Source: Paludibacter sp. (GTDB lineage: Bacteria > Bacteroidota > Bacteroidia > Bacteroidales > Paludibacteraceae). Taken from it: a stretch of DNA of 9,691 nt. Below the pieces are notes generated by a model. That model ran no database searches. It was not told the origin of the DNA and saw nothing but the letters and a program-made list of their open reading frames with translations. Where the stretch lies: NCBI GenBank assembly GCA_018054805.1, contig JAGPIU010000019.1:1-9691 (forward strand). Reading direction: 5' to 3'. Both the position numbers and the translations under genes were made by a program. Below, piece by piece: positions 1 to 9,691 of this stretch; position 1 is the first letter of the stretch; the number at the start of each line of letters is the position of its first letter.

Positions 1-116
1 CCATCTTCGAACACAATGATTTCGAAATCGATGAACTGATCGGTAGCCTGCCTGTGTAGGTCGGTTATCAGCTGCGTGACATTGTGGTTATATATTGGTA
101 CGAGGATGGATAACAT
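1..116 (-). CDS. Family 2 glycosyltransferase, N-terminal fragment (cut by left window edge)
   Basis: The minus strand from the ATG at 116-114 reads MLSILVPIYNHN and then an aliphatic/aspartate stretch ending FEIIVFEDG at the edge (38 codons plus 2 bases). This is the usual start of GT-A family 2 glycosyltransferases: a first beta strand with the (S)ILVPIYN motif, a helix, then a second strand ending in the acidic D/E-D-G nucleotide-sugar-binding segment. Such enzymes transfer a sugar from a nucleotide-sugar to polysaccharide, lipid or protein acceptors. The acceptor cannot be told from 38 residues. No Shine-Dalgarno is visible, which is normal for Bacteroidota. A promoter -7 motif lies about 76 bp upstream (192-199). 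The rest of the gene is outside the window. Family call fairly sure, specificity unknown. Confidence 0.8.
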   Translation of the reverse strand, partial: MLSILVPIYNHNVTQLITDLHRQATDQFIDFEIIVFED

Positions 117-191
117 GTTTGCACTGCACTTTTTCTGAAGTGTTTGTTTTCCAAAAGCTCCTGAAGTAGTTTCATTTGCATTTGATAGCTG

Positions 192-199
192 CAAATATA
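192..199 (-). promoter_or_regulatory. Bacteroidota-type -7 promoter element (TATATTTG) for the glycosyltransferase
   Basis: The minus strand reads TATATTTGC, an exact match to the TAnnTTTG -7 consensus of the Bacteroidota primary sigma factor. Transcription would start near 185, leaving a leader of about 70 nt before the ATG at 116. No clear TTG -33 element is seen at the expected distance. Confidence 0.5.
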
Positions 200-253
200 G
201 TGAAAAAATATTGACATGTGGCTGTGCCGGTCATTTTTTCTGAATTTATTCAA

Positions 254-283
254 CAGATAAATAAAAGGGGTATTATTTATCTG
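254..283. repeat. 11-bp inverted repeat overlapping the SRPBCC stop codon
   Basis: CAGATAAATAA (254-264) and TTATTTATCTG (273-283) are perfect complements around an 8-nt loop. The hairpin contains the stop codon at 277-279. It is AT-rich and has no good T-tract in the minus direction, so it may be a weak terminator or a 3'-end stabiliser. Confidence 0.5.
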
Positions 284-747
284 TCTGTTTTTCCGAATTG
301 TTTTTCCATTGCTGTTTTTCTGTAGTCAAAAATACCCCGTAGTTGTTTCCTTATAAATAATGAATTGGCAATGGCCCCGATAAAGCCAAAAGGAGGTTGG
401 TACGATACAATATCGGTCATTAATACACCGCCTTCAATGGCTTCAATTTTATGTTCGTGATGCCACATGGCATAAGGGCCAATGCGCTGTTCGTCCACAA
501 AATATTCAAGCTCCTTTACCTGCGTGATTTCGGTTACCCAGTTCATTTTTATACCCAAAACCGGACTTACCTTGTAGGTAATGATCATGCCAGGATACAT
601 TTTTTGTTCAGCCATTTTGTTGGTAACTACAAAACCCATATATTCGGGCGTTATTTTCTTTAAGTTTAGTGGCGACGAAATAAAATCCCAAACCTCACTA
701 ATGTCTGCTTTGATAAGACTTTTGCTTTTGAACTGATAAAATGCCAT
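277..747 (-). CDS. SRPBCC-fold (START/Bet v1-like) protein, COG4276-like
   Basis: A 156-residue cytoplasmic protein with no signal peptide or membrane segment. It has the pattern of small SRPBCC (Bet v1/START helix-grip) proteins: N-terminal strand and helix (about residues 10-35, 'ISEVWDFISSPLNLKKITP'), the segment PGMIITYKVSP (about 53-63), then W-T-E-I strands. The GPYAMWHHEHKIE segment (about 90-102) and the terminal helix with IFDYR are typical of the uncharacterised COG4276 subgroup. SRPBCC domains bind hydrophobic ligands in a deep cavity; no substrate is known for this subgroup. The start is the ATG at 747. It lies 104 bp downstream of the GH53 gene on the same strand, and no convincing promoter is visible between them, so co-transcription is possible. 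Fold fairly sure, function unknown. Confidence 0.75.
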   Translation of the reverse strand: MAFYQFKSKSLIKADISEVWDFISSPLNLKKITPEYMGFVVTNKMAEQKMYPGMIITYKVSPVLGIKMNWVTEITQVKELEYFVDEQRIGPYAMWHHEHKIEAIEGGVLMTDIVSYQPPFGFIGAIANSLFIRKQLRGIFDYRKTAMEKQFGKTDR

Positions 748-851
748 AAATCTGTATTTTTTTTCTAAGTAACATCTTTACACCTGCATTTGTTGTAATT
801 ACTTTCGCAAGTTTTACAGGATGGTATTTTTCAGTTTTCCGGAGTTCGGAA

Positions 852-2105
852 TCAGTACAAAAGCACTTTAGCTTTCGACTCTTTGCCTGAGTAAGCCAGT
901 GCATTTACAATATATGTACCCGGTGAAAGTTGACGGGTTGCAATGCTGTCGGTGTTTTCAGCGGTCAGCACAATTTTACCTGCAGCACTGATAACGCTTA
1001 CTTTACGGAACCTTTCGTCAAACGAAATTTCTGCTACGGTTTTATTGTAATGTATATTAAATGTCTCCGCTTTCAGTTGTAGGGTTTCAGTAATGTTCCT
1101 GAAAGCATCCAAGGCTACTGTAGGTCGTCCGCTATTGTCGAATGCCCCCAGAGTGTAACCTTTCCAGTTGCCGTACGACTGAGGTTCCCAGTAAAAAACG
1201 CCTGTTCCCATACCGTTTTTTACCTGTTTTGTTTTGGAAATAAGATCGGTCAGAAAGCTTTTGGCAGTAGCTGCCATATCCCAGCTCATTCCGCACTCCA
1301 CAATCATTACTTCTTTATTGTAACGGGTAACCATATCATTCATATTGGCCAGACAGGCATTGTTGGCCGATTGCCAGTCGTTCTTAACAGTGTACCACGA
1401 TGGATAAAGCGACATACCTATTATATCCCATTTGCCTCCGTTGTTTTTAAGACCATCGAAAATCCAACGAAAAAGATTGTTGTCGTATCCGTTGTGGATA
1501 TGCACTATGACTTTGGCATTCGGATAAACTTCTTTTACCGCATCGTATCCGGCAGTAGTAAGCGCAGCATAATTACTCATGCTTACTGACGCTTTGCCTG
1601 TTTCCCACAACATACCATTTCCGGTTTCATTTCCCACCTGTACCCATTCTACAGCAATCTGATTGTTTTTAAGCAGCGTGAGTACATCTCTTGTGTGGTT
1701 TGCTACAGCTGTTTTTAATCCGTTCAGGTCGTAAGTTGTCCATGCTGCCGGTTTGGTTTGCTTCGAAGGGTCTGCCCACGAGTCGCTGTAGTGGAAATCG
1801 ATCATAATACGCATGCCCAGATTGCTTGCGCGACGGGCTTTGACCAACAGATCGGCTGCATTGCACCAACCATCGGTCGGGTTTACCCAGACTCTCAGTC
1901 TCACAGCATTCATATCAAGCGATTTCAGCAAAGTCATACATTCTGTCTGAACACCTTCGCTGTTGTAAAATTTTTTCCCGGTAGCTTCCATTTCTGTTAG
2001 CCAGCTGATATCAGCTCCTTTTGCAAAATCCTGTGCCTGAGTAATTCCGTTGTGTCCTAAACACAAAATCAGCACAAGCGTTATGGCTCTGAATGTTTTT
2101 TTCAT
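852..2105 (-). CDS. Secreted GH53 arabinogalactan endo-beta-1,4-galactanase with a T9SS-like C-terminal domain
   Basis: Glycoside hydrolase family 53 cleaves beta-1,4-galactan side chains of pectin. From the ATG at 2105 the protein has 417 residues. Residues 1-24 form a signal peptide (KK start, hydrophobic core, likely cleavage after ITQA). The catalytic (beta/alpha)8 barrel spans about 27-340, with RLRVW (70-74), DFHYSDSWADP (103-112), WVQVGNE with the likely acid/base E160, and MIVECGMSW with the likely nucleophile E270. The last 75 residues form a beta-rich tail with the G-K, L-S-P-G-T-Y and K-x-K-V-L-L-Y pattern of T9SS type A sorting domains, which suggests release or attachment at the cell surface. 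A TTG 12 bases further upstream is in frame, but the ATG gives a better signal peptide. No SusC/SusD genes flank it. Confidence 0.93.
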   Translation of the reverse strand: MKKTFRAITLVLILCLGHNGITQAQDFAKGADISWLTEMEATGKKFYNSEGVQTECMTLLKSLDMNAVRLRVWVNPTDGWCNAADLLVKARRASNLGMRIMIDFHYSDSWADPSKQTKPAAWTTYDLNGLKTAVANHTRDVLTLLKNNQIAVEWVQVGNETGNGMLWETGKASVSMSNYAALTTAGYDAVKEVYPNAKVIVHIHNGYDNNLFRWIFDGLKNNGGKWDIIGMSLYPSWYTVKNDWQSANNACLANMNDMVTRYNKEVMIVECGMSWDMAATAKSFLTDLISKTKQVKNGMGTGVFYWEPQSYGNWKGYTLGAFDNSGRPTVALDAFRNITETLQLKAETFNIHYNKTVAEISFDERFRKVSVISAAGKIVLTAENTDSIATRQLSPGTYIVNALAYSGKESKAKVLLY

Positions 2106-2131
2106 TTTTCTGTTCAATTTAATCAGACTGC

Positions 2132-2139
2132 CAAAGATA
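2132..2139 (-). promoter_or_regulatory. -7 promoter element (TATCTTTG) for the GH53 gene
   Basis: The minus strand reads TATCTTTGG, an exact TAnnTTTG match. It predicts a start near 2125 and a leader of about 20 nt to the ATG at 2105, which supports that start over the upstream TTG. The -33 region is only T-rich. Confidence 0.6.
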
Positions 2140-2153
2140 GTTATTTTTCAGGT

Positions 2154-2168
2154 ATTATTAAAATACAG
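2154..2168 (+). repeat. Left copy of a 15-bp imperfect direct repeat flanking the inverted-repeat element
   Basis: ATTATTAAAATACAG here matches ATTAATAAAATACAG at 2365-2379 at 14 of 15 positions. The two copies sit four bases outside the two ends of the element at 2173-2360. They could be an old target-site duplication or chance similarity of AT-rich sequence. Confidence 0.4.
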
Positions 2169-2172
2169 AGTT

Positions 2173-2360
2173 GTCCGGTAATTTTTTCTTAATGATTAAA
2201 ATGAGATCTCTCACTCCGTTCGAGATGACAATCAATTGGTTATATTTTAGGAGGGGGATAGGTTGGCGGCGAAGCTGCCAACCTATCCCCCTCCTAACCA
2301 AATTCAATACAAAATACTGTCATTCAGAGCGAAGCGAAGAATCTAATGATTTTACCGGAC
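2173..2360. repeat. 188-bp palindromic repeat element with terminal inverted repeats (MITE/REP-like)
   Basis: The ends are perfect 9-bp inverted repeats, GTCCGGTAA (2173-2181) and TTACCGGAC (2352-2360). Further in, the segments at about 2204-2230 and 2320-2346 face each other. Each is a version of the TGTCATnCnGAnCGnAGnGA repeat that is scattered through many environmental genomes and translates to 'HSERSEES'; paired, they agree at about 18 of 27 positions. The centre (2249-2299) is a separate, nearly perfect hairpin. There is no coding capacity, so if mobile it would need a transposase in trans. It sits in the divergent gap between the GH53 and DUF1015 promoters. Confidence 0.7.
2249..2299. 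repeat. Perfect 21-bp inverted repeat (hairpin) at the centre of the element
   Basis: The left arm (2249-2269, ending GGATAGGTTGGC) and right arm (2279-2299, starting GCCAACCTATCC) are perfect complements. The 9-nt loop GGCGAAGCT can add two more Watson-Crick pairs and one G-T pair, closing on GAA. The arms are much richer in G/C than the flanks. There is no T-tract after either arm, so it is not a standard terminator. Confidence 0.9.
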
Positions 2361-2364
2361 TACA

Positions 2365-2379
2365 ATTAATAAAATACAG
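2365..2379 (+). repeat. Right copy of the 15-bp imperfect direct repeat
   Basis: ATTAATAAAATACAG, one mismatch from the left copy at 2154-2168. Beyond it, up to the DUF1015 promoter, the sequence is AT-rich with only a weak inverted repeat (2396-2405 with 2422-2431) and no gene. Confidence 0.4.
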
Positions 2380-2482
2380 TAATTTGATTATAAATGTTTC
2401 AGTATACGAATTATTTTTTGCATATTGAAACGAAAACACTTCTGTGCGCATGAAAATACTCGCATAGTCATAATTTTTTATG

Positions 2483-2490
2483 TAACTTTG
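2483..2490 (+). promoter_or_regulatory. -7 promoter element (TAACTTTG) for the DUF1015-PorE unit
   Basis: Exact TAnnTTTG match followed by C. The predicted start near 2497 gives a leader of about 40 nt before the ATG at 2537. No clear -33 TTG is visible. Confidence 0.6.
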
Positions 2491-2536
2491 CAACTCTCAA
2501 AAAAACAGATAAATCAAATTCAAAAAACTTAAGTTT

Positions 2537-3784
2537 ATGGCTGTTATTAAACCCTTTAAAGGTATTCGTCCTCCAAAAAATTTAGTTGAAAAAGTGGCTT
2601 CACGCCCTTACGATGTGTTGAATTCGGAAGAAGCCCGTGCCGAAGCTGCCGGAAATCCAATGTCGCTTTATCGTATTATTAAACCTGAAATCGACTTCGA
2701 ACCGGGAACCGATGAGCATGAGGAAAAAGTGTACAACAAAGCGCTCGAAAACTTTACTAAATTTAAAAACGATGGCTGGCTTGTACAGGACCAACAGGAA
2801 AAATACTACGTGTATGCACAGACCATGAACGGAAAAACGCAATACGGACTCGTTGTTTGTGCACATGTGGACGACTATATGGAAGGCCGCATTAAAAAGC
2901 ATGAACTTACCCGTCGCGACAAGGAAGAAGACCGCATGAAACATGTGCGTGTAAACAATGCCAATATCGAACCGGTATTTTTTGCTTATCCACACCATGC
3001 CGAACTCGATGCCATTGTGTCGGACATTGTAAAAAACGATCCTGAATATAACTTTGTGGCTCAGGGCGATGGCTTCGGACACCATTTCTGGGTAATCGAC
3101 AATCCTGAAACCATTGCACGCATAACCGAACTGTTCGCTGCAATTCCTTCGCTGTACATTGCCGACGGACATCACCGTAGCGCTGCTGCAGCACTGGTTG
3201 GCGACGAAAAACGCCGTCAGAACCCTAATCATACCGGCACCGAGGAATACAACTACTTTATGGCAGTTTGCTTCCCCGATAATCAGCTGAACATTATCGA
3301 CTACAACCGTGTGGTTAAAGATCTGAATAATCTGACCGACGAAGAATTTCTGGCTAAACTGGCTGTGAATTTCGAGGTTGAAAAAATGGGAACTGAGATT
3401 TATAAACCCAATAAATTGCACAATTTCTCGTTGTATCTTTCGGGTGAATGGTATTCACTCACCGCAAAGGCCGGAACTTACAACGACAACGATCCAATCG
3501 GAGTGCTCGATGTCACTATTTCGTCGAATCTGATTCTGGACGAGGTGCTTGGCATTAAAGACCTGCGCAGCGACAAACGTATCGACTTTGTGGGTGGTAT
3601 TCGCGGACTTGGTGAGTTGAAAAAACGTGTGGATAGTGGCGAAATGCGCGTCGCGCTGGCACTTTATCCTGTGTCGATGAAGCAACTTATCGACATTGCC
3701 GATACCGGAAACATTATGCCGCCTAAAACAACATGGTTCGAACCAAAACTGCGTTCGGGACTGGTTATTCACGAATTAGCGTAA
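2537..3784 (+). CDS. DUF1015 family protein (COG4198), possible ParB/SerK-like fold
   Basis: A 415-residue soluble protein that matches the DUF1015 family along its whole length. It has the N-terminal IKPFKGIRPP segment and the ASRPYDVLN motif (about residues 21-29). The long central segment contains GRIKKHELTRRDKEEDRMKH, and the signature YIADGHHRSAAA follows, with D210-G-H-H-R214. The DGHHR motif resembles the nucleotide/phosphate site of ParB- and SerK-type proteins. From memory, Bacteroidota relatives often sit next to serC/serA, hinting at a serine-biosynthesis role, but those genes are not in this window. The gene ends six bases before the PorE-like gene, so the two are probably one operon. 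Family call sure; the reaction is unknown and I assign none. Confidence 0.93.
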   Translation: MAVIKPFKGIRPPKNLVEKVASRPYDVLNSEEARAEAAGNPMSLYRIIKPEIDFEPGTDEHEEKVYNKALENFTKFKNDGWLVQDQQEKYYVYAQTMNGKTQYGLVVCAHVDDYMEGRIKKHELTRRDKEEDRMKHVRVNNANIEPVFFAYPHHAELDAIVSDIVKNDPEYNFVAQGDGFGHHFWVIDNPETIARITELFAAIPSLYIADGHHRSAAAALVGDEKRRQNPNHTGTEEYNYFMAVCFPDNQLNIIDYNRVVKDLNNLTDEEFLAKLAVNFEVEKMGTEIYKPNKLHNFSLYLSGEWYSLTAKAGTYNDNDPIGVLDVTISSNLILDEVLGIKDLRSDKRIDFVGGIRGLGELKKRVDSGEMRVALALYPVSMKQLIDIADTGNIMPPKTTWFEPKLRSGLVIHELA

Positions 3785-3790
3785 TAGAAT

Positions 3791-5773
3791 ATGCAGAAAA
3801 AACTTCTATACTTTCTTCTTATATTTTCGACGGTATGGCTTATGCAGGGTTGCAGCCTTAATTCCCGTTTGAAAAAGGCTGACAAAGAATTCAGCATGGG
3901 CGAATATTATTCGGCAGGGGAGAAGTATAGAAAGCTTTTTTCGCAAATTCCGGCCAAAGACAGAGCCACCAGAGCAAAAGTGTTATTCAATCAGGCAGAG
4001 TGTGCGCGTTTGATGAATTACACTAACGCAGAACAAATGTATGCCAATGCTATCCGTTTCGGATATCCTGATAGTCTTGTGTATCTGCGTTATGCCCAGG
4101 TGTTGCACCGCAATGCCAAATACGATTTGGCTGCGAAAAATTATGCCATTTATCTGCAAAAGGATAGTTCGCACACAATGGCTGCCAACGGGCTTAAAGC
4201 ACTTGAACTTTCGACTCAGTTTAAAGCTGCTCCCACGCCTTATGTGGTAAAAAAGGCCGATGTGTTCAATGCCCGTAGAAGTTATTCTTTTAGTCCCGCT
4301 TTCTCGGGTTCGGATGGCGATATGCTGTTTTTTACGTCGAACAGATCGCTGAATGCAAAATCGGCAGCCAAAAATAGTCGTATCAACGGAGCTCCTGTAA
4401 ACAAAATCTTTTCATCGAAAAAAAACGCAGCCGGAAAGTGGGAAAAACCACAGATTGCAGCTGCTGAAGAGGCTACTACCACTGTCACCGACGATGGAGT
4501 TGTGTCGTTTACTACCGATGGTCGTATCATGTTTATGACCCGTGCAAGTCAGCAAACAACAGGCGAAACGGGTGCTGAGATTTATGTGTCGAGCAGGGCA
4601 GGAGGTAGTTGGAGTGCGCCTAAGAAACTTGAAATTTTCAAGGATAGCACTATTTCAGTGGCTCATCCGGCCATAGCCCCCGACGATATGACGCTTTATT
4701 TTGTATCTGATGCACCAAATGGTTTTGGCGGAAAAGATATCTGGATAGCTACTTACGACGAAGGAGTTGTAAAAGATGTACGAAATGCGGGATCGCAGAT
4801 AAATACGCCCGGCGACGAAATGTTTCCGACAGTGCGTCGGGATGGAACGCTTTATTTTTCGTCGAATGGTTTGCCCGGAATTGGCGGCCTGGATATTTTC
4901 AAAGCGGTACAAAAAGATAAAGACTGGATTGTCGAAAATATAGGAATGCCCATCAACTCTAACTTCGACGATTTTGGAATTGCTTTCGAAGGAAATGCCG
5001 AACGGGGATTTTTCAGTTCGAACCGTGGCGAAAATCGTGGCTACGACAATATATGGAGCTTTGAGTTACCCGAATACGAATATCTGCTCGAAGGTCGTGT
5101 GCTCGACGAAAATCAGAGTCCTGTGCCCGATGCTTATGTGCGATTGGTTAGCAACTCGGGTATCAACGCCCGTGTGCAGGTGAAAAAGGACGGTACTTAT
5201 CGCATAAAAATCGACAAAAATATTGATTGTGTGATGATGGCTACTGCCCGTGGTTTTCTCAACAAGGAAGCCCGACTCTCAACTGTTGGCGTGAAAGAAA
5301 GTAAGATTTTTACGCAGGATTTTACGCTTGTAACCATTTACAAACCTATTCAGATGGATAATATCTTTTATGAGTTTGGTAAATGGAATTTAACGCCGGA
5401 GTCGGAGACAGGTTTACAGGAGTTGGTGAAAATACTACGCGATAATCCGAACATCACCATCGAAATCAGTGCGCATACCGACCATGTGGGCAACAACGAA
5501 GCCAACAAAACATTGTCGGAACGAAGAGCGCAATCTGTGGTGGAATATCTGATTGCTGCCGGCATTGCCAAAGATCGTTTGACTGCTGTGGGTTATGGCG
5601 AAGAAAAACCATTTGTGGTAAATGCGGCTACAGCACAGAAATTCTCTTTCCTTAAGGAAAACGATGAACTGACCGAGGCATTTGTAAATGCACTTCCTGC
5701 CGATCAGCAGGAGCAGGCTAAACAAATCAATCGCCGTACCGAATTCAGAGTATTGAAAACTACTTACAAATAA
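3791..5773 (+). CDS. porE: PorE-like lipoprotein: TPR, PD40 beta-propeller, carboxypeptidase-regulatory and OmpA domains
   Basis: A 660-residue lipoprotein. The signal peptide ends in LMQGC with the acylated cysteine at 21. The following SLNSRL lacks an acidic surface-export signal, so it should face the periplasm. Domains in order: TPR-like helices (about 28-145); PD40/WD40-like propeller blades (about 160-425, with repeats such as LYFVSDAPNGFGGKDIW); a beta-sandwich regulatory domain (about 431-515); and an OmpA peptidoglycan-binding domain (about 523-656) with HTD564 and LSERRA (R578/R579), the expected diaminopimelate-binding residues. This order and length match PorE of the Porphyromonas gingivalis type IX secretion system, which anchors the machine to peptidoglycan. 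The secreted GH53 enzyme in the same window fits an active T9SS. Other OmpA/PD40 proteins, such as those paired with PorP/SprF-like proteins, share parts of this layout, so the symbol is likely but not certain. Confidence 0.85.
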   Translation: MQKKLLYFLLIFSTVWLMQGCSLNSRLKKADKEFSMGEYYSAGEKYRKLFSQIPAKDRATRAKVLFNQAECARLMNYTNAEQMYANAIRFGYPDSLVYLRYAQVLHRNAKYDLAAKNYAIYLQKDSSHTMAANGLKALELSTQFKAAPTPYVVKKADVFNARRSYSFSPAFSGSDGDMLFFTSNRSLNAKSAAKNSRINGAPVNKIFSSKKNAAGKWEKPQIAAAEEATTTVTDDGVVSFTTDGRIMFMTRASQQTTGETGAEIYVSSRAGGSWSAPKKLEIFKDSTISVAHPAIAPDDMTLYFVSDAPNGFGGKDIWIATYDEGVVKDVRNAGSQINTPGDEMFPTVRRDGTLYFSSNGLPGIGGLDIFKAVQKDKDWIVENIGMPINSNFDDFGIAFEGNAERGFFSSNRGENRGYDNIWSFELPEYEYLLEGRVLDENQSPVPDAYVRLVSNSGINARVQVKKDGTYRIKIDKNIDCVMMATARGFLNKEARLSTVGVKESKIFTQDFTLVTIYKPIQMDNIFYEFGKWNLTPESETGLQELVKILRDNPNITIEISAHTDHVGNNEANKTLSERRAQSVVEYLIAAGIAKDRLTAVGYGEEKPFVVNAATAQKFSFLKENDELTEAFVNALPADQQEQAKQINRRTEFRVLKTTYK

Positions 5774-5791
5774 AGAAACAAACCTTCGAAA

Positions 5792-5879
5792 CCAAATATA
5801 ATCATTTGGACACGCAAGGTAAGGATTATAAACGCAAAAAACTCAATGCAACCCGTCTTATTCCCCTTTAGGCGTGTCC
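5792..5879. repeat. Nested inverted repeats in the PorE-thyA gap
   Basis: CCAAAT (5792-5797) pairs with ATTTGG (5804-5809). GGACACGC (5808-5815) pairs with GCGTGTCC (5872-5879). Just downstream, TTCCCCTTTAGG and GGTTAGGGGTC look like the two halves of a common Bacteroidota CCCCTTTAGGGG-type intergenic repeat. No promoter motif is seen in the 140-bp gap, so thyA may be read from the upstream unit. Confidence 0.45.
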
Positions 5880-5913
5880 GCCGTGGAGGAGGTTAGGGGT
5901 CAATTAAAAACAA

Positions 5914-6708
5914 ATGAAACAATATCTCGATTTATTGCAGCGTGTGATGACCGAAGGAGTGCGGAAAGAAGACCGTACCGGAACCGGAACGATCAGTGTG
6001 TTCGGGCATCAGATGCGTTTTAATATGGAGGAAGGATTTCCCTGCCTCACAACCAAAAAGCTTCATCTCAAATCCATTATTCACGAACTTTTGTGGTTTC
6101 TGAACGGCGACACCAATGTGAAGTATTTGCAGGACAATGGTGTGCGAATATGGAACGAATGGGCCGACGAAAAAGGTGATCTCGGGCATATTTACGGATA
6201 TCAGTGGCGTTCGTGGCCCGATTACAATGGTGGTCACATCGATCAGATTACTGAAGTGCTGAATACTATAAAAAACAATCCCGATTCACGCCGAATTATT
6301 GTGAGCGCATGGAATGTGGCCGATATTCCTAATATGAATCTTCCACCATGTCATGCTTTTTTTCAGTTTTATGTGGCCGATGGAAAACTGAGTCTGCAAC
6401 TTTATCAGCGCAGTGCCGATATTTTTCTGGGTGTTCCTTTTAATATTGCTTCGTATGCTTTGTTGCTGCAAATGATGGCGCAGGTTACGGGCCTTAAAGC
6501 CGGCGATTTTGTACATACGCTTGGCGATGCACATATTTATACAAACCATTTCGACCAGGTAAAATTGCAATTGACTCGCGAAACACGTCCTTTGCCTCAA
6601 ATGAAAATCAATCCTGATGTAAAGAGTATTTTCGATTTTAAATTCGAAGATTTTGAACTGATCAATTATGATCCACACCCACATATAAAAGGGGAGGTTT
6701 CAATTTAA
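5914..6708 (+). CDS. thyA: Thymidylate synthase
   Basis: ThyA converts dUMP and 5,10-methylene-tetrahydrofolate to dTMP and dihydrofolate in the cytoplasm. The protein has 264 residues, the same length as E. coli ThyA, and is collinear with it. Visible motifs are [10 protein letters not shown] with the phosphate-binding arginine (R21) near the N-terminus, [12 protein letters not shown], the active-site loop [12 protein letters not shown] with nucleophile C146, the [18 protein letters not shown] dUMP/folate segment, and [12 protein letters not shown]. The C-terminus (GEVSI) matches the usual mobile tail. It lies 140 bp after the PorE-like gene and 230 bp before folA, with a terminator between thyA and folA. 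Confidence 0.98.
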
Positions 6709-6750
6709 TTTCACAGATTTGTACTTTTTGTGCAACATTCAAAATATATT

Positions 6751-6784
6751 AAACGGATAGCTTGGTCGGTTATCCGTTTTTTTT
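6751..6784 (+). terminator. Rho-independent terminator after thyA
   Basis: AAACGGATA (6751-6759) pairs perfectly with TATCCGTTT (6771-6779) around an 11-nt loop. It is followed by a run of eight Ts (6777-6784). Confidence 0.85.
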
Positions 6785-6787
6785 ATG

Positions 6788-6795
6788 TAATTTTG
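6788..6795 (+). promoter_or_regulatory. -7 promoter element (TAATTTTG), candidate for folA
   Basis: Exact TAnnTTTG match directly after the thyA terminator. It would give a leader of about 135 nt. A second, weaker candidate, TTACTTTG (6879-6886), lies closer to folA and would give a leader of about 45 nt. Neither has a well-spaced TTG. Confidence 0.4.
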
Positions 6796-6938
6796 TCGGC
6801 CTGTCTGTTTACGATTGAAGTTTTTTTTTGGGCATCGTGCCCTTGTATTTTGACCGTAATATAACTGAAAATATAGCTTTACTTTGTCATTTTAAGATGA
6901 TAAAGTTATTGTGAAATTAAAATCGTAAATTAATCATT

Positions 6939-7436
6939 ATGTCAGAAATTTCAATTGTTGCTGCTGTGGCCGACAATTATGCCATTGGAAAGGGAAATAA
7001 ACTTCCATGGCATTTACCGGCCGATCTGAAGCATTTCAGAGAACTGACCACCGGTCATGCGGTAGTTATGGGTAAACGAACCTTTGAAAGCCTGCCGAAT
7101 GGCCCGCTTCCTAATCGTAGAAATGTGGTACTTACTTCGGTAATGTCCGAAGGTGTAAACGAAGGTTATTTTGAAGCCGACTCGCTCGAAGATGCTTTTT
7201 ATCTTTGCGAAAAAGAAGAGAAAGTCTTTATTGTAGGTGGTGCTGCGGTTTATCGCCAGAGTCTCGAAATTGCTGAATCGCTTTATATTACATGGGTACA
7301 TCACGAGTTTAGTGCCGACATTTATTTTCCTGAAGTTGATTTTTCGAAATGGGAAGAGGTGTCGCGTCAGGATATGTCAGCTGATGAGAAGAATCCTTAT
7401 CCATATTCATTTGTACATTACAAAAGAAAGAAGTAA
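6939..7436 (+). CDS. folA: Dihydrofolate reductase
   Basis: FolA reduces dihydrofolate to tetrahydrofolate with NADPH and so restores the cofactor that ThyA oxidises. The 165-residue protein has all the family landmarks: SIVAAVADNYAIGKGNKLPWHLPADLKHF with the catalytic acidic residue D29, VVMGKRTFESL (about residues 42-52) for NADPH, the RRNVVLTS strand, and the FIVGGAAVYRQ glycine motif. Length and order are typical of chromosomal bacterial DHFR. It lies downstream of thyA in the same direction but behind a terminator, so it probably has its own promoter. A very strong terminator follows. The start ATG is supported by the standard N-terminal beta strand. Confidence 0.98.
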   Translation: MSEISIVAAVADNYAIGKGNKLPWHLPADLKHFRELTTGHAVVMGKRTFESLPNGPLPNRRNVVLTSVMSEGVNEGYFEADSLEDAFYLCEKEEKVFIVGGAAVYRQSLEIAESLYITWVHHEFSADIYFPEVDFSKWEEVSRQDMSADEKNPYPYSFVHYKRKK

Positions 7437-7445
7437 ATACAGGAT

Positions 7446-7497
7446 AAACATAAAAAACGCCATTTTTCAATACCGAAAAATGGCGTTTTTTATGTTT
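7446..7497. terminator. 23-bp perfect hairpin terminator after folA
   Basis: The arms at 7446-7468 and 7475-7497 are perfect complements around the 6-nt loop AATACC. The GC core is ACGCCA/TGGCGT. On the plus strand the core is followed by six Ts (7486-7491); on the minus strand the matching arm is also T-rich, so the hairpin is symmetrical and could stop transcription both ways. Confidence 0.9.
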
Positions 7498-7535
7498 AAT
7501 AATTGTTTTGTCGAACAAAAAGTATATTTTATTGC

Positions 7536-7564
7536 TTGTTACTCTGACAAAATGATTATCTTTG
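7536..7564 (+). promoter_or_regulatory. asnA promoter: TTG -33 and TATCTTTG -7
   Basis: TTG (7536-7538), an 18-bp spacer, then TATCTTTG (7557-7564). This is the clearest two-part Bacteroidota promoter in the window. It predicts a start near 7571 and a leader of about 32 nt. Confidence 0.7.
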
Positions 7565-7602
7565 CCTGAAATTTAAATCAAAAACACATATTATACACTC
7601 TT

Positions 7603-8640
7603 ATGAGCTATTTATTCAGACCCAAAAGCTATAAGCCCATTTTAAATCTGCAACAGACCGAACTGGGTATTACCAAGATTAAAGATTTCTTTCAGGCAAA
7701 TTTGTCAGCCGAACTCAGACTGCGTCGTGTCACTGCACCGCTTTTTGTATTACGTGGCACCGGACTCAACGACGACCTGAACGGTACCGAGCGTGCTGTG
7801 AATTTTCCCATTATGGATATGGGCGATGTGCGTGCCGAAGTGGTGCATTCGCTTGCCAAATGGAAACGTGTGACGCTGGCCGATTACGAAATTGAAAACG
7901 GATATGGCATTTATACCGATATGAACGCCATTCGTGCCGACGAAGAACTGGGTAATATTCACTCACTTTACGTGGATCAGTGGGACTGGGAACGTGTAAT
8001 GACAGCCGAAGAGCGTAATGTGGATTTTTTGAAATCGATCGTTCGTCGCATTTATGCTACTCTTCTTCGCACAGAATACCTTGTGTCGGAAAGTTTTCCT
8101 GATATCAAACCTGTACTTCCTCCTGAAATTACTTTTATTCATGCCGAGGAATTGCGCCAGATGTATCCTGATAAAACTTCGAAAGAACGCGAAACCGAAT
8201 TTACACGTCAACACAAAGCGGTGTTTATTATGGGCATTGGCGGTCAGCTGGGCGATGGAAAAAAACATGATGGCCGTGCTCCGGACTACGACGACTGGAC
8301 AACTCCGGGCGACAATGGCCTCGAAGGATTAAATGGAGATATTATTCTTTGGAATCCGGTATTGGAAATTGCTTTCGAAATTTCGTCGATGGGCATCCGT
8401 GTGGATAAAGAAGCTTTGCTTCGTCAGTTGGCACTCGAAGGAAAAGAAGATCGCAAAGAACTTTATTTCCACAAACGACTGCTCGAAGGCTCACTTCCGC
8501 TTTCAGTTGGTGGTGGTATTGGACAGTCACGTTTGTGTATGTTCTTCCTGCGTAAAGCTCATATTGGTGAAATTCAGGCAAGTATATGGCCAGAAGATAT
8601 GCGCGAAGAATGTCGTAAACTCGACATCCACCTGATTTAA
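7603..8640 (+). CDS. asnA: Aspartate-ammonia ligase (asparagine synthetase A)
   Basis: AsnA makes asparagine from aspartate, ammonia and ATP, releasing AMP and pyrophosphate. It has a class II aminoacyl-tRNA-synthetase-like catalytic fold. The protein has 345 residues, slightly longer than E. coli AsnA (330). Collinear motifs include RRVTAPLFV near residue 41, TDMNAIRADEE, YVDQWDWE, the central TRQHKAVFIMGIGGQL, and LEIAFEISSMGIRVD. GGGIGQSRL (303-311) is the motif 3-like ATP-binding segment, and the end has QASIWP. It has its own promoter. No terminator is seen directly after it, so some transcripts may run on to the terminator at 8936-8970 through the structured RNA region. Confidence 0.97.
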   Translation: MSYLFRPKSYKPILNLQQTELGITKIKDFFQANLSAELRLRRVTAPLFVLRGTGLNDDLNGTERAVNFPIMDMGDVRAEVVHSLAKWKRVTLADYEIENGYGIYTDMNAIRADEELGNIHSLYVDQWDWERVMTAEERNVDFLKSIVRRIYATLLRTEYLVSESFPDIKPVLPPEITFIHAEELRQMYPDKTSKERETEFTRQHKAVFIMGIGGQLGDGKKHDGRAPDYDDWTTPGDNGLEGLNGDIILWNPVLEIAFEISSMGIRVDKEALLRQLALEGKEDRKELYFHKRLLEGSLPLSVGGGIGQSRLCMFFLRKAHIGEIQASIWPEDMREECRKLDIHLI

Positions 8641-8683
8641 TTTTCTCAACAGACTATTTTTAGTGGTTTGAAATATTGAAAGA

Positions 8684-8691
8684 TATATTTT
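8684..8691 (+). promoter_or_regulatory. Near-consensus -7 element (TATATTTT) ahead of the structured RNA
   Basis: This matches TAnnTTTG except for the last base. A start about 7 nt downstream (8698-8699) would coincide with the first base of the outer RNA helix. There is no good TTG at the usual spacing; a TTTG at 8667-8670 is too close. Confidence 0.4.
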
Positions 8692-8698
8692 AAACACA

Positions 8699-8853
8699 AT
8701 AGAACACATAGTAATTATTGTAGATAAAAGACTTAGTTCGCATAGTAAACGTATCTGATGATACGTTTTACAGCGCTGAAATTATCCCGTTTTTCGGGAT
8801 AATTCTATGTGTCCTTAGTCTTTTCTTTTGTTTGCAAAACTACTGTGTACTAT
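8699..8853 (+). ncRNA. Candidate structured non-coding RNA, possibly 6S-like
   Basis: A nested fold can be drawn by hand. The outer helix pairs 8699-8712 with 8839-8853 (13 pairs, one A-A mismatch, one bulged C). A bubble of 13 nt (8713-8725) faces 14 nt (8825-8838). The inner helix pairs 8726-8733 with 8817-8824 (8 pairs), continues with two pairs after a T-T mismatch, then 8739-8745 with 8805-8811 (7 pairs, one G-T). This closes a junction with two perfect hairpins: 8747-8755/8760-8768 (9 bp, loop TGAT) and 8780-8789/8795-8804 (10 bp, loop TTTTT). No open reading frame of note is present. The rod-and-bubble layout resembles 6S RNA; a Bacteroidales-specific RNA family or an asnA 3'-UTR-derived RNA are alternatives. 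The 3' end is unclear: either trimmed near 8855 or at the terminator at 8970. Confidence 0.6.
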
Positions 8854-8898
8854 GCGGTGAAAACATATCAATAATAATTATCGATTACTTATTTGATA

Positions 8899-8914
8899 GA
8901 AAACCATAGTTTTC
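8899..8914 (+). repeat. Short inverted repeat between the RNA and the terminator
   Basis: GAAAAC (8899-8904) and GTTTTC (8909-8914) pair around CATA. The rest of 8856-8930 is AT-rich with no gene; TATCAA near 8866 can also pair with TTGATA near 8893. Confidence 0.35.
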
Positions 8915-8935
8915 AATTGTCATTTTTGTAAAAAG

Positions 8936-8970
8936 AGACTTCCAAAAAACCATTGGAAGTCTTTTTTTTT
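8936..8970 (+). terminator. Rho-independent terminator upstream of rpe
   Basis: AGACTTCCA (8936-8944) pairs perfectly with TGGAAGTCT (8954-8962) around a 9-nt loop, and nine Ts follow (8962-8970). It would end transcripts of the structured RNA and any read-through from asnA. Confidence 0.88.
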
Positions 8971-8980
8971 GTTATTTTTG
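8953..8980 (+). promoter_or_regulatory. rpe promoter: TTG -33 and TATTTTTG -7
   Basis: TATTTTTG (8973-8980) matches TAnnTTTG exactly. TTG at 8953-8955 lies 17 bp upstream, inside the right arm of the preceding terminator. The predicted start near 8987 gives a leader of about 94 nt. Confidence 0.6.
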
Positions 8981-8989
8981 CACTCAAAG

Positions 8990-9059
8990 CTGTTTTAAAA
9001 AAAAAACAGAATTTTGTAAGTTGCTGACATGGTTTGTTTCAGAGCTTGCGTACAACCAT
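8990..9059 (+). promoter_or_regulatory. Two hairpins in the rpe leader
   Basis: CTGTTTT (8990-8996) pairs with AAAACAG (9003-9009) almost at the predicted 5' end. ATGGTTTGT (9029-9037) pairs with ACAACCAT (9052-9059) with one bulged T. They could protect or regulate the mRNA; no known riboswitch is recognised. Confidence 0.35.
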
Positions 9060-9080
9060 TATAATCTCAAATGTAAATAA

Positions 9081-9691
9081 ATGAAACGAATAATTTCTCC
9101 CTCGATATTAGCGGCTGACTTTGGAAATCTTCAGTCGATGTGCGAAATGATAAACCGTAGCGAAGCTGAATGGTTGCACATCGATGTGATGGATGGCGTG
9201 TTTGTGCCTAATATCTCATTTGGTTTCCCTGTGATTGAAGCAGTTAAGAAGCATTGTAATAAGCTTTTGGATGTGCATATTATGATAGTAAATCCCGAAA
9301 AATACGTTCAACGGTTTGCAAGAGCAGGAGCAGAGATGCTTACTTTTCATTACGAAGCCACCGAAAGTCCACTTGAAGTAATTGAAATGATTCGTGCCGA
9401 AGGTATAAAAGTGGGGATTACCATAAATCCCGATGTACCTGTGAGTGAGCTCGAACTATTTATCGACAAAGTGGATATGGTGCTGCTGATGACGGTTTTT
9501 GCCGGTTATGGCGGACAGAAGTTTATCGAAGATAGTTACGGGCGTATCGATGCCCTGAAAGAAATGGTGGACAGATTAAATCCCGACTGTCTGATTGAAG
9601 TGGATGGCGGTGTAAATGCCGAAAATGCTCCGAAACTTTTTGCGCGGGGCGTGAATGTATTGGTAGCCGGAAGTACTGTTTTCAATGCACC
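9081..9691 (+). CDS. rpe: Ribulose-phosphate 3-epimerase (3' end outside window)
   Basis: Rpe interconverts ribulose 5-phosphate and xylulose 5-phosphate in the pentose phosphate pathway. The reading frame is open from the ATG at 9081 to the right edge (203 codons of an expected 215-220). The TIM-barrel motifs are in place: ISPSILAADFGNL (5-17), WLHIDVMDGVFVPN (31-44) with metal/acid-base residues H33 and D35, DVHIMIVNPEKY with H66, LIEVDGGVNAENA with the second catalytic D175, and VLVAGSTVF for the phosphate. The usual MSVNPGFGGQ phosphate loop reads MTVFAGYGGQ (137-146). It has its own promoter after a terminator. Identity is sure despite the loop variant. Confidence 0.96.
   Translation, partial: MKRIISPSILAADFGNLQSMCEMINRSEAEWLHIDVMDGVFVPNISFGFPVIEAVKKHCNKLLDVHIMIVNPEKYVQRFARAGAEMLTFHYEATESPLEVIEMIRAEGIKVGITINPDVPVSELELFIDKVDMVLLMTVFAGYGGQKFIEDSYGRIDALKEMVDRLNPDCLIEVDGGVNAENAPKLFARGVNVLVAGSTVFNA

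Follow-up and report, generated by a model that had tools for sequence, protein, structure and literature searches.

The folded stretch at positions 8699-8853 of the window (viz. the whole stretch of 9,691 nucleotides of Paludibacter sp. DNA that was analysed) is the middle part of a dispersed repeat of 232 bp, which lies in the gap between the genes asnA and rpe and is very probably one copy of a non-autonomous miniature transposable element of the IS630 type (Tc1/mariner superfamily). The element is a copy of a new RUP-like family of IS630-type MITEs, i.e. of an ordinary kind of element with an unusually well-kept fold, and this assignment is based on its multicopy occurrence, on its sharp ends, on the duplication of TA by elements bearing like ends, and on the presence in related genomes of IS630-type genes between such ends. 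The parts of the element are listed in Table 1.

Table 1. Positions in the window of the element, of its parts and of a hairpin downstream of it
Feature	Positions	Strand	Remarks
Whole element (MITE copy)	8660..8891	+	232 bp; ends defined by aligning 45 full copies whose flanks are unrelated
Left terminal repeat, TAAGTA-N12-TWWTGATATRTTT type, 4 mismatches	8660..8690	+	
Right terminal repeat, reading inward, 0 mismatches	8861..8891	-	
Outer stem, left arm (AACACAATAGAACACATAG)	8693..8711	+	Fold, consensus structure, covariation analysis
Outer stem, right arm	8840..8859	+	Fold, consensus structure, covariation analysis
Structured core (three-way junction with two hairpins, closed by the inner stem)	8726..8823	+	Alignment A2, covariance model R1
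Hairpin 1, 9 bp	8747..8768	+	A-U to G-C double change in 6/45 copies
Hairpin 2, 10 bp	8780..8804	+	U-A to C-G double change in 1/45 copies
Intrinsic-terminator-like hairpin, outside the element	8930..8968	+	Consensus scan only

Distribution of the repeat and the asnA-rpe gap

In the window the element starts 19 bp after the stop codon of asnA; its G+C content is 29.3%, compared with 41.5% for the window as a whole, and the longest open stretch within it is 56 codons. The genome G133, which agrees with window positions 867-9691 at 95.7% over 8,829 aligned positions and carries positions 8660-8900 unchanged, is therefore from the window's species or nearly so. Window positions 1-866 could not be aligned with their counterpart in G133:C60, where the sequence looks unrelated, and the differences between the window and G133:C60 are clustered (at 2600-2800, 3400-5000, 8200-8400 and 9200-9400, reaching 34 differences in 200 bp), as after recombination. 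The longest of the diverged blocks lies mostly in a gene for an OmpA/PD40 protein, and most of the remaining stretches are nearly identical.

The original prediction had taken the folded stretch for an RNA gene of the asnA-rpe gap, and in this respect it was not borne out, as the gap holds a transposable repeat with defined ends, copies of which are inserted in all orientations. G133 gave 41 matches (40 of its 73 candidates were scored), one of which is a self-match of a hairpin, leaving at least 40 full or partial stretches; further genomes with matches were G137 (41), G013 (24, at E 0.1 or better), G149 (11), G140 (4), G160 (3) and G138 (2), the counts being inclusive of partial pieces, lone ends and self-matches. 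Among the 48 genomes of the genus, 14 had a match at E 1e-4 or better in the DNA search, and matches longer than 100 bp were seen only in the seven named above. In a sample of the family, some match at E 0.01 was present in 17 of 120 genomes, with full-length matches only in G013 (6 candidates scored per genome). The earliest DNA search, which covered 12 relatives, gave chiefly short or tip matches; the tip matches at L082 and L083 were judged on reading not to belong to full elements and were left out. Short matches in one record each of the phage and plasmid collections were taken as chance.

A set of 45 distinct full-length copies (22 from G133, 12 from G137, 10 from G013 and one from G138) was assembled from distinct sequences spanning the query from position 12 or earlier to position 222 or later of 234, with partial copies left out; hence no row in it comes from L204, L208, L210, L213, L214, L217-L226 or other fetched loci, which were partial or non-distinct. 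The full copies are 220-234 bp long, and no ORF of at least 110 aa contains any of the 45. Relative to the neighbouring genes, the four arrangements are almost equally frequent (11, 11, 11 and 9 copies; for 3 of the 45 the arrangement is unknown, a gene being missing on one side), which argues against a fixed role of the element as a leader, terminator or 3' element.

The gap itself was compared among relatives, as the original prediction had proposed, and is not conserved at the asnA loci examined. At the best 80 of 590 AsnA loci, no similarity to window positions 8641-8980 was found (blastn gave nothing below E 0.49, and nhmmer nothing at E 1), and a match to rpe was absent from the fetched flanks of these 80 loci, which extend up to 3 kb (those of L068, L072 and L080 are short downstream). 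At 30 loci from 36 genus genomes with AsnA, rpe was present within a flank of up to 1.5 kb only in G133, and the fetched flanks of the other 29 loci (L367 and L371 being short downstream) contained no rpe. As no other examined asnA locus has rpe in its fetched flank, an orthologous empty site was not found for the window copy, and none was found for any other copy of its family.

These results bear on the explanation put forward originally, viz. one housekeeping RNA, 6S-like or of another sort, situated in the asnA-rpe gap and having a promoter and a terminator of its own. The strong fold and the terminator-like hairpin downstream are in accordance with such an RNA. However, at the gathering threshold no Rfam family, 6S RNA included, matched the window, and the 20 matches given by a permissive search of positions 8600-9100 (the best with 25.7 bits versus a cut-off of 55) are all far under their cut-offs and were taken as chance. 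The predicted terminator is represented by a hairpin on the + strand, which is perhaps the terminator of asnA, but it lies outside the element. The proposed promoter, a '-7 motif' placing the start of a transcript on the first paired base, is unsupported: the motif is TATATTTT at 8684-8691, at the inner margin of the left terminal repeat, and only 2 of the 45 copies contain TAnnTTTG within their first 50 nt, the other 43 being without it. Because of the many copies per genome and the missing synteny, a housekeeping RNA is already contradicted, and its probability is in our view negligible.

Ends, TA target and IS630-type transposases

The 45 full copies have sharp boundaries, beyond which their flanks are unrelated to each other. 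The left and right ends, of 31 bp each, differ from one another but both fit the form TAAGTA-N12-TWWTGATATRTTT. The dinucleotide TA is found at the left end in 35 of the 45 copies, at the right end in 43 and at both ends in 34, against a background in the flanks of 8.9% of dinucleotides (472 of 5,310). In the window copy the right dinucleotide is TA and the left one is TT, the latter being a point that counts against the assignment to IS630-type MITEs.

Information regarding the target site is provided by four family copies, viz. L311, L317, L309 (G013) and L185 (G137), inside which guests with ends of this form are nested. At these insertions, as read by eye from the sequence, a TA that is single in the uninterrupted consensus is present twice in the interrupted copy, which shows that elements with TAAGTA-N12-TWWTGATATRTTT ends duplicate TA on insertion. 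The guests in L311 and L317 are of the same type and occupy the same site. The locus L309 (G013:C1:232151-232836) contains two family copies close together, one of them broken by the nested guest, and an end of this guest resembles the end of the IS at L324 (TATAATGTCGTATTT).

Ends of the same form also border other palindromic interiors, as seen in G002, G157, G152 and G096 and, more loosely, in G035 (among the individual loci, in L171, L172 and L122 and, more loosely, in L124). In G002 the right end recurs as inverted pairs flanking C-rich palindromes; many copies of another palindromic element with the same end form are present in this genome (L101-L108 and L119), those printed being C-rich inside (GACCCCCAACCCCCAAAGGGGGC) and about 185-240 bp long. 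At two loci of G133 (L314:4084-4114 and L315:3815-3845), a left-type end adjoins an interior of another kind, which contains GACCCC..GGGGTC and TTATCCC..GGGATAA hairpins, and the end scan gave no right end for these two.

The search for Pfam DDE_3 (IS630-type) transposase genes gave matches in 18 of the 48 genus genomes. At 6 of the 30 loci fetched, the DDE_3 gene lies between two inward-facing ends situated 1,072-1,111 bp apart and having at most 3 mismatches each, where the end matches were assessed by the number of mismatches alone. The mismatches at the two ends are 0 and 0 in L339, 0 and 3 in L325, 1 and 1 in both L327 and L333, 2 and 2 in L330, and 3 and 3 in L324; L339, with the best end match, is a broken IS, its gene being broken. 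L325 contains two ORFs that overlap; the one of 134 aa has no Pfam match, the one of 204 aa matches DDE_3 at 4.4e-32, and the first ORF of L324 matches HTH_23. In the IS630-type elements L325:1441-2446, L327 and L330 the transposase is divided between two ORFs that lie in different frames, which suggests programmed frameshifting. No DDE_3 (PF13358) match was found in G013, G133 and G137, which are rich in the family, and the assemblies of G133 and G137 consist of many contigs. An autonomous partner in the same genome, which is usual for the IS630 type although not required, was thus not seen in these three genomes, a result that counts against the assignment; the driver has been lost there or was missed, and its probable nature is judged from the relatives.

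The element is thus short, non-coding and multicopy, with sharp terminal inverted repeats and a target-site duplication (of TA, as shown via the nested guests), which are the characteristics of a MITE, and insertion at a TA that is duplicated, together with ends common to insertion sequences of the IS630 family, points to the IS630 type. A palindromic, intergenic and multicopy element could also be of the REP/BIME type, moved by a RAYT (Y1) transposase. However, the length of 232 bp, the two distinct 31-bp ends and the TA duplication fit a DDE transposase, and an origin of the REP/BIME type is very unlikely.

As an IS630-type MITE without an ORF of note, the element is expected to move in trans. 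An IS630-family transposase, encoded by an IS that has similar ends, would bind the TAAGTA-N12-TWWTGATATRTTT ends of the element, excise it and insert it at a TA, which would thereby be duplicated. The interior is a branched palindrome, so that the element folds strongly on either strand, and at its present site it would constitute a long hairpin in the 3' part of any read-through transcript of asnA. We infer both which transposase moved the window family and any effect that the element may have on asnA.

The folded interior and its variation

All of the helices originally predicted at 8699-8853 are present within the minimum-energy fold, in which the inner helix is formed by 8726-8745 paired with 8805-8824, and the two perfect hairpins by 8747-8755/8760-8768 and 8780-8789/8795-8804. 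The minimum energy of this stretch is -53.3 kcal/mol, versus -25.6 ± 3.6 for 200 dinucleotide shuffles (z -7.7 on the + strand), none of which reaches this value, in agreement with the expectation that random spacer would rarely give such a fold. However, the minus strand of the same stretch folds nearly as well (z -6.4), and the whole element has a z of -5.7 as RNA and of -5.75 as single-stranded DNA. The fold therefore does not single out an RNA of the + strand, and the formation of such an RNA from the element is not supported. Among the 45 full copies z ranges from -10.0 to -2.7, with a mean of -6.4 (mononucleotide shuffles, 40 for each copy). The consensus folds of the three species show the two ends paired with each other around the outer stem, the inner stem and the three-way junction with its two hairpins; the best fold of the window copy, whose left end is diverged, lacks this end-to-end pairing. 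The description of the structure as an undescribed one has held, inasmuch as it is strong and branched and matches no Rfam family, and its helices are found again in the relatives.

One feature of these copies is not predicted by a plain MITE and counts against it, viz. that the ends are more variable than the paired interior. For G133, G137 and G013, respectively, the rates of private substitution (per column and copy) are 0.011, 0.011 and 0.005 for the paired interior, 0.026, 0.035 and 0.031 for the unpaired interior, and 0.033, 0.032 and 0.037 for the ends, where the paired columns were picked from the same copies, a choice that favours conserved columns. When the structure was taken from another species, the contrast in private changes was kept in all five tests (p 0.0002 to 0.044). 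Such a pattern would be expected if the family were one of dispersed structured noncoding RNAs (or structured mRNA elements) carried on transposon ends, whose core is a functional unit under selection at the RNA level. Also in favour of this explanation is a diverged relative, L408 in G149, with ends of the TAAGTA-N12-TWWTGATATRTTT form on both sides (read by eye), which has different hairpin sequences and keeps 31 of the 33 core pairs, with 8 double changes, in an alignment fitted to the structure.

However, several observations speak against selection of this kind. When all changes are counted, the contrast is seen in four of the five tests, and in G013 the paired and unpaired columns hardly differ (0.045 and 0.049). 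No strand preference is seen, there being 14 G-U versus 18 A-C cells in the interior pairs and 20 versus 35 when the ends are included. Covariation, which had been proposed as a check of the original prediction, is weak within the 45 copies: double changes are found at 4 pairs (a number reached in 132 of 500 shuffles) and in 9 cells (reached in 1 of 500), and control structures slid along the alignment give comparable values of 3-6 pairs and 4-10 cells, so that the signal within the 45 copies is not above these controls. Old copies lose pairs (L412, 9/33; L407, 12/33), and the orientation to genes is random. Further, the covariance model of the core, which matched 6 of 11 chosen genomes of the genus, matched only one genome (G013) of the 295 in an order-wide sample, with stricter filters and 14 candidates scored per genome. 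Selection of the core at the RNA level is, on this evidence, rather improbable. The broader proposition that the core is a functional unit selected for its shape, either as RNA or as extruded DNA, with the IS630-type ends only as its vehicle, is likewise doubtful, if slightly less so; if true, it would mean that a folded, conserved module is distributed through the genome by a mobile element, the hairpin sequences of the module being exchangeable and its architecture constant. The low variation of the paired interior could result from selection on the source copies, from template-switch repair of palindromes or from a real function of the fold.

Weak matches to the core model were also given by L401, L405 and L415 (G136), L411 (G140) and L402 (G159), which contain CACATAG/CTATGTG words and other hairpins, and which are without TAAGTA ends where they were read. 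The pair counts for L416, L417, L411 and L402 were set aside as evidence, as these may be chance fits to the core model.

Related elements and significance

The nearest known kind of element is RUP of Streptococcus pneumoniae. RUP is a small, AT-rich repeat with 110 copies in one genome and ends like those of IS630-Spn1, and in its tight fold the terminal repeats are paired (PMC3049150). The window element is similar to it in being a small, AT-rich, multicopy repeat with IS630-type ends and a tight fold; however, RUP is about 107 bp long and from a different phylum, whereas the window element has 232 bp and a branched core. Unlike the pair of RUP and IS630-Spn1, no IS630-type gene was found in G013, G133 and G137 beside the family.

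Three other systems share some of these characteristics. The Correia repeat enclosed elements of Neisseria are MITEs with inverted repeats and a conserved core, to which the window element is likened by description, and binding or cleavage by RNase III has been reported for them (PMC2649163, PMC10969869). From the Correia elements and a general review of MITEs, a likely consequence of transcription of the window element is a hairpin that RNase III may cut (PMC2649163, PMC10969869). For ISY100, a member of the IS630/Tc1/mariner group, it is reported that the transposase works in vitro unaided by other proteins and that the TA at the target becomes duplicated (PMC2170065); insertion at TA with its duplication is as in elements of the window type, but ISY100 is autonomous and cyanobacterial. 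BrickBuilt of Porphyromonas gingivalis resembles the window element in being a MITE of Bacteroidetes with predicted stem-loops, but it carries a minisatellite and makes duplications of varying length, and IS630 is not mentioned in its description (PMC4596501). In the literature on MITEs in Bacteroidetes and on insertion sequences and repeats of Paludibacter (mostly papers outside subscription journals), no description of the window family was found.

The interpretation of the window element as an IS630-type MITE explains its striking fold and removes a false candidate for an RNA gene. In addition, the form TAAGTA-N12-TWWTGATATRTTT with a TA target links IS630-type transposases with several families of palindromic repeats in Paludibacter-type bacteria, and this end signature can be used to annotate such repeat families. 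The low variation of the paired interior further raises the question of whether such MITEs carry a selected fold.
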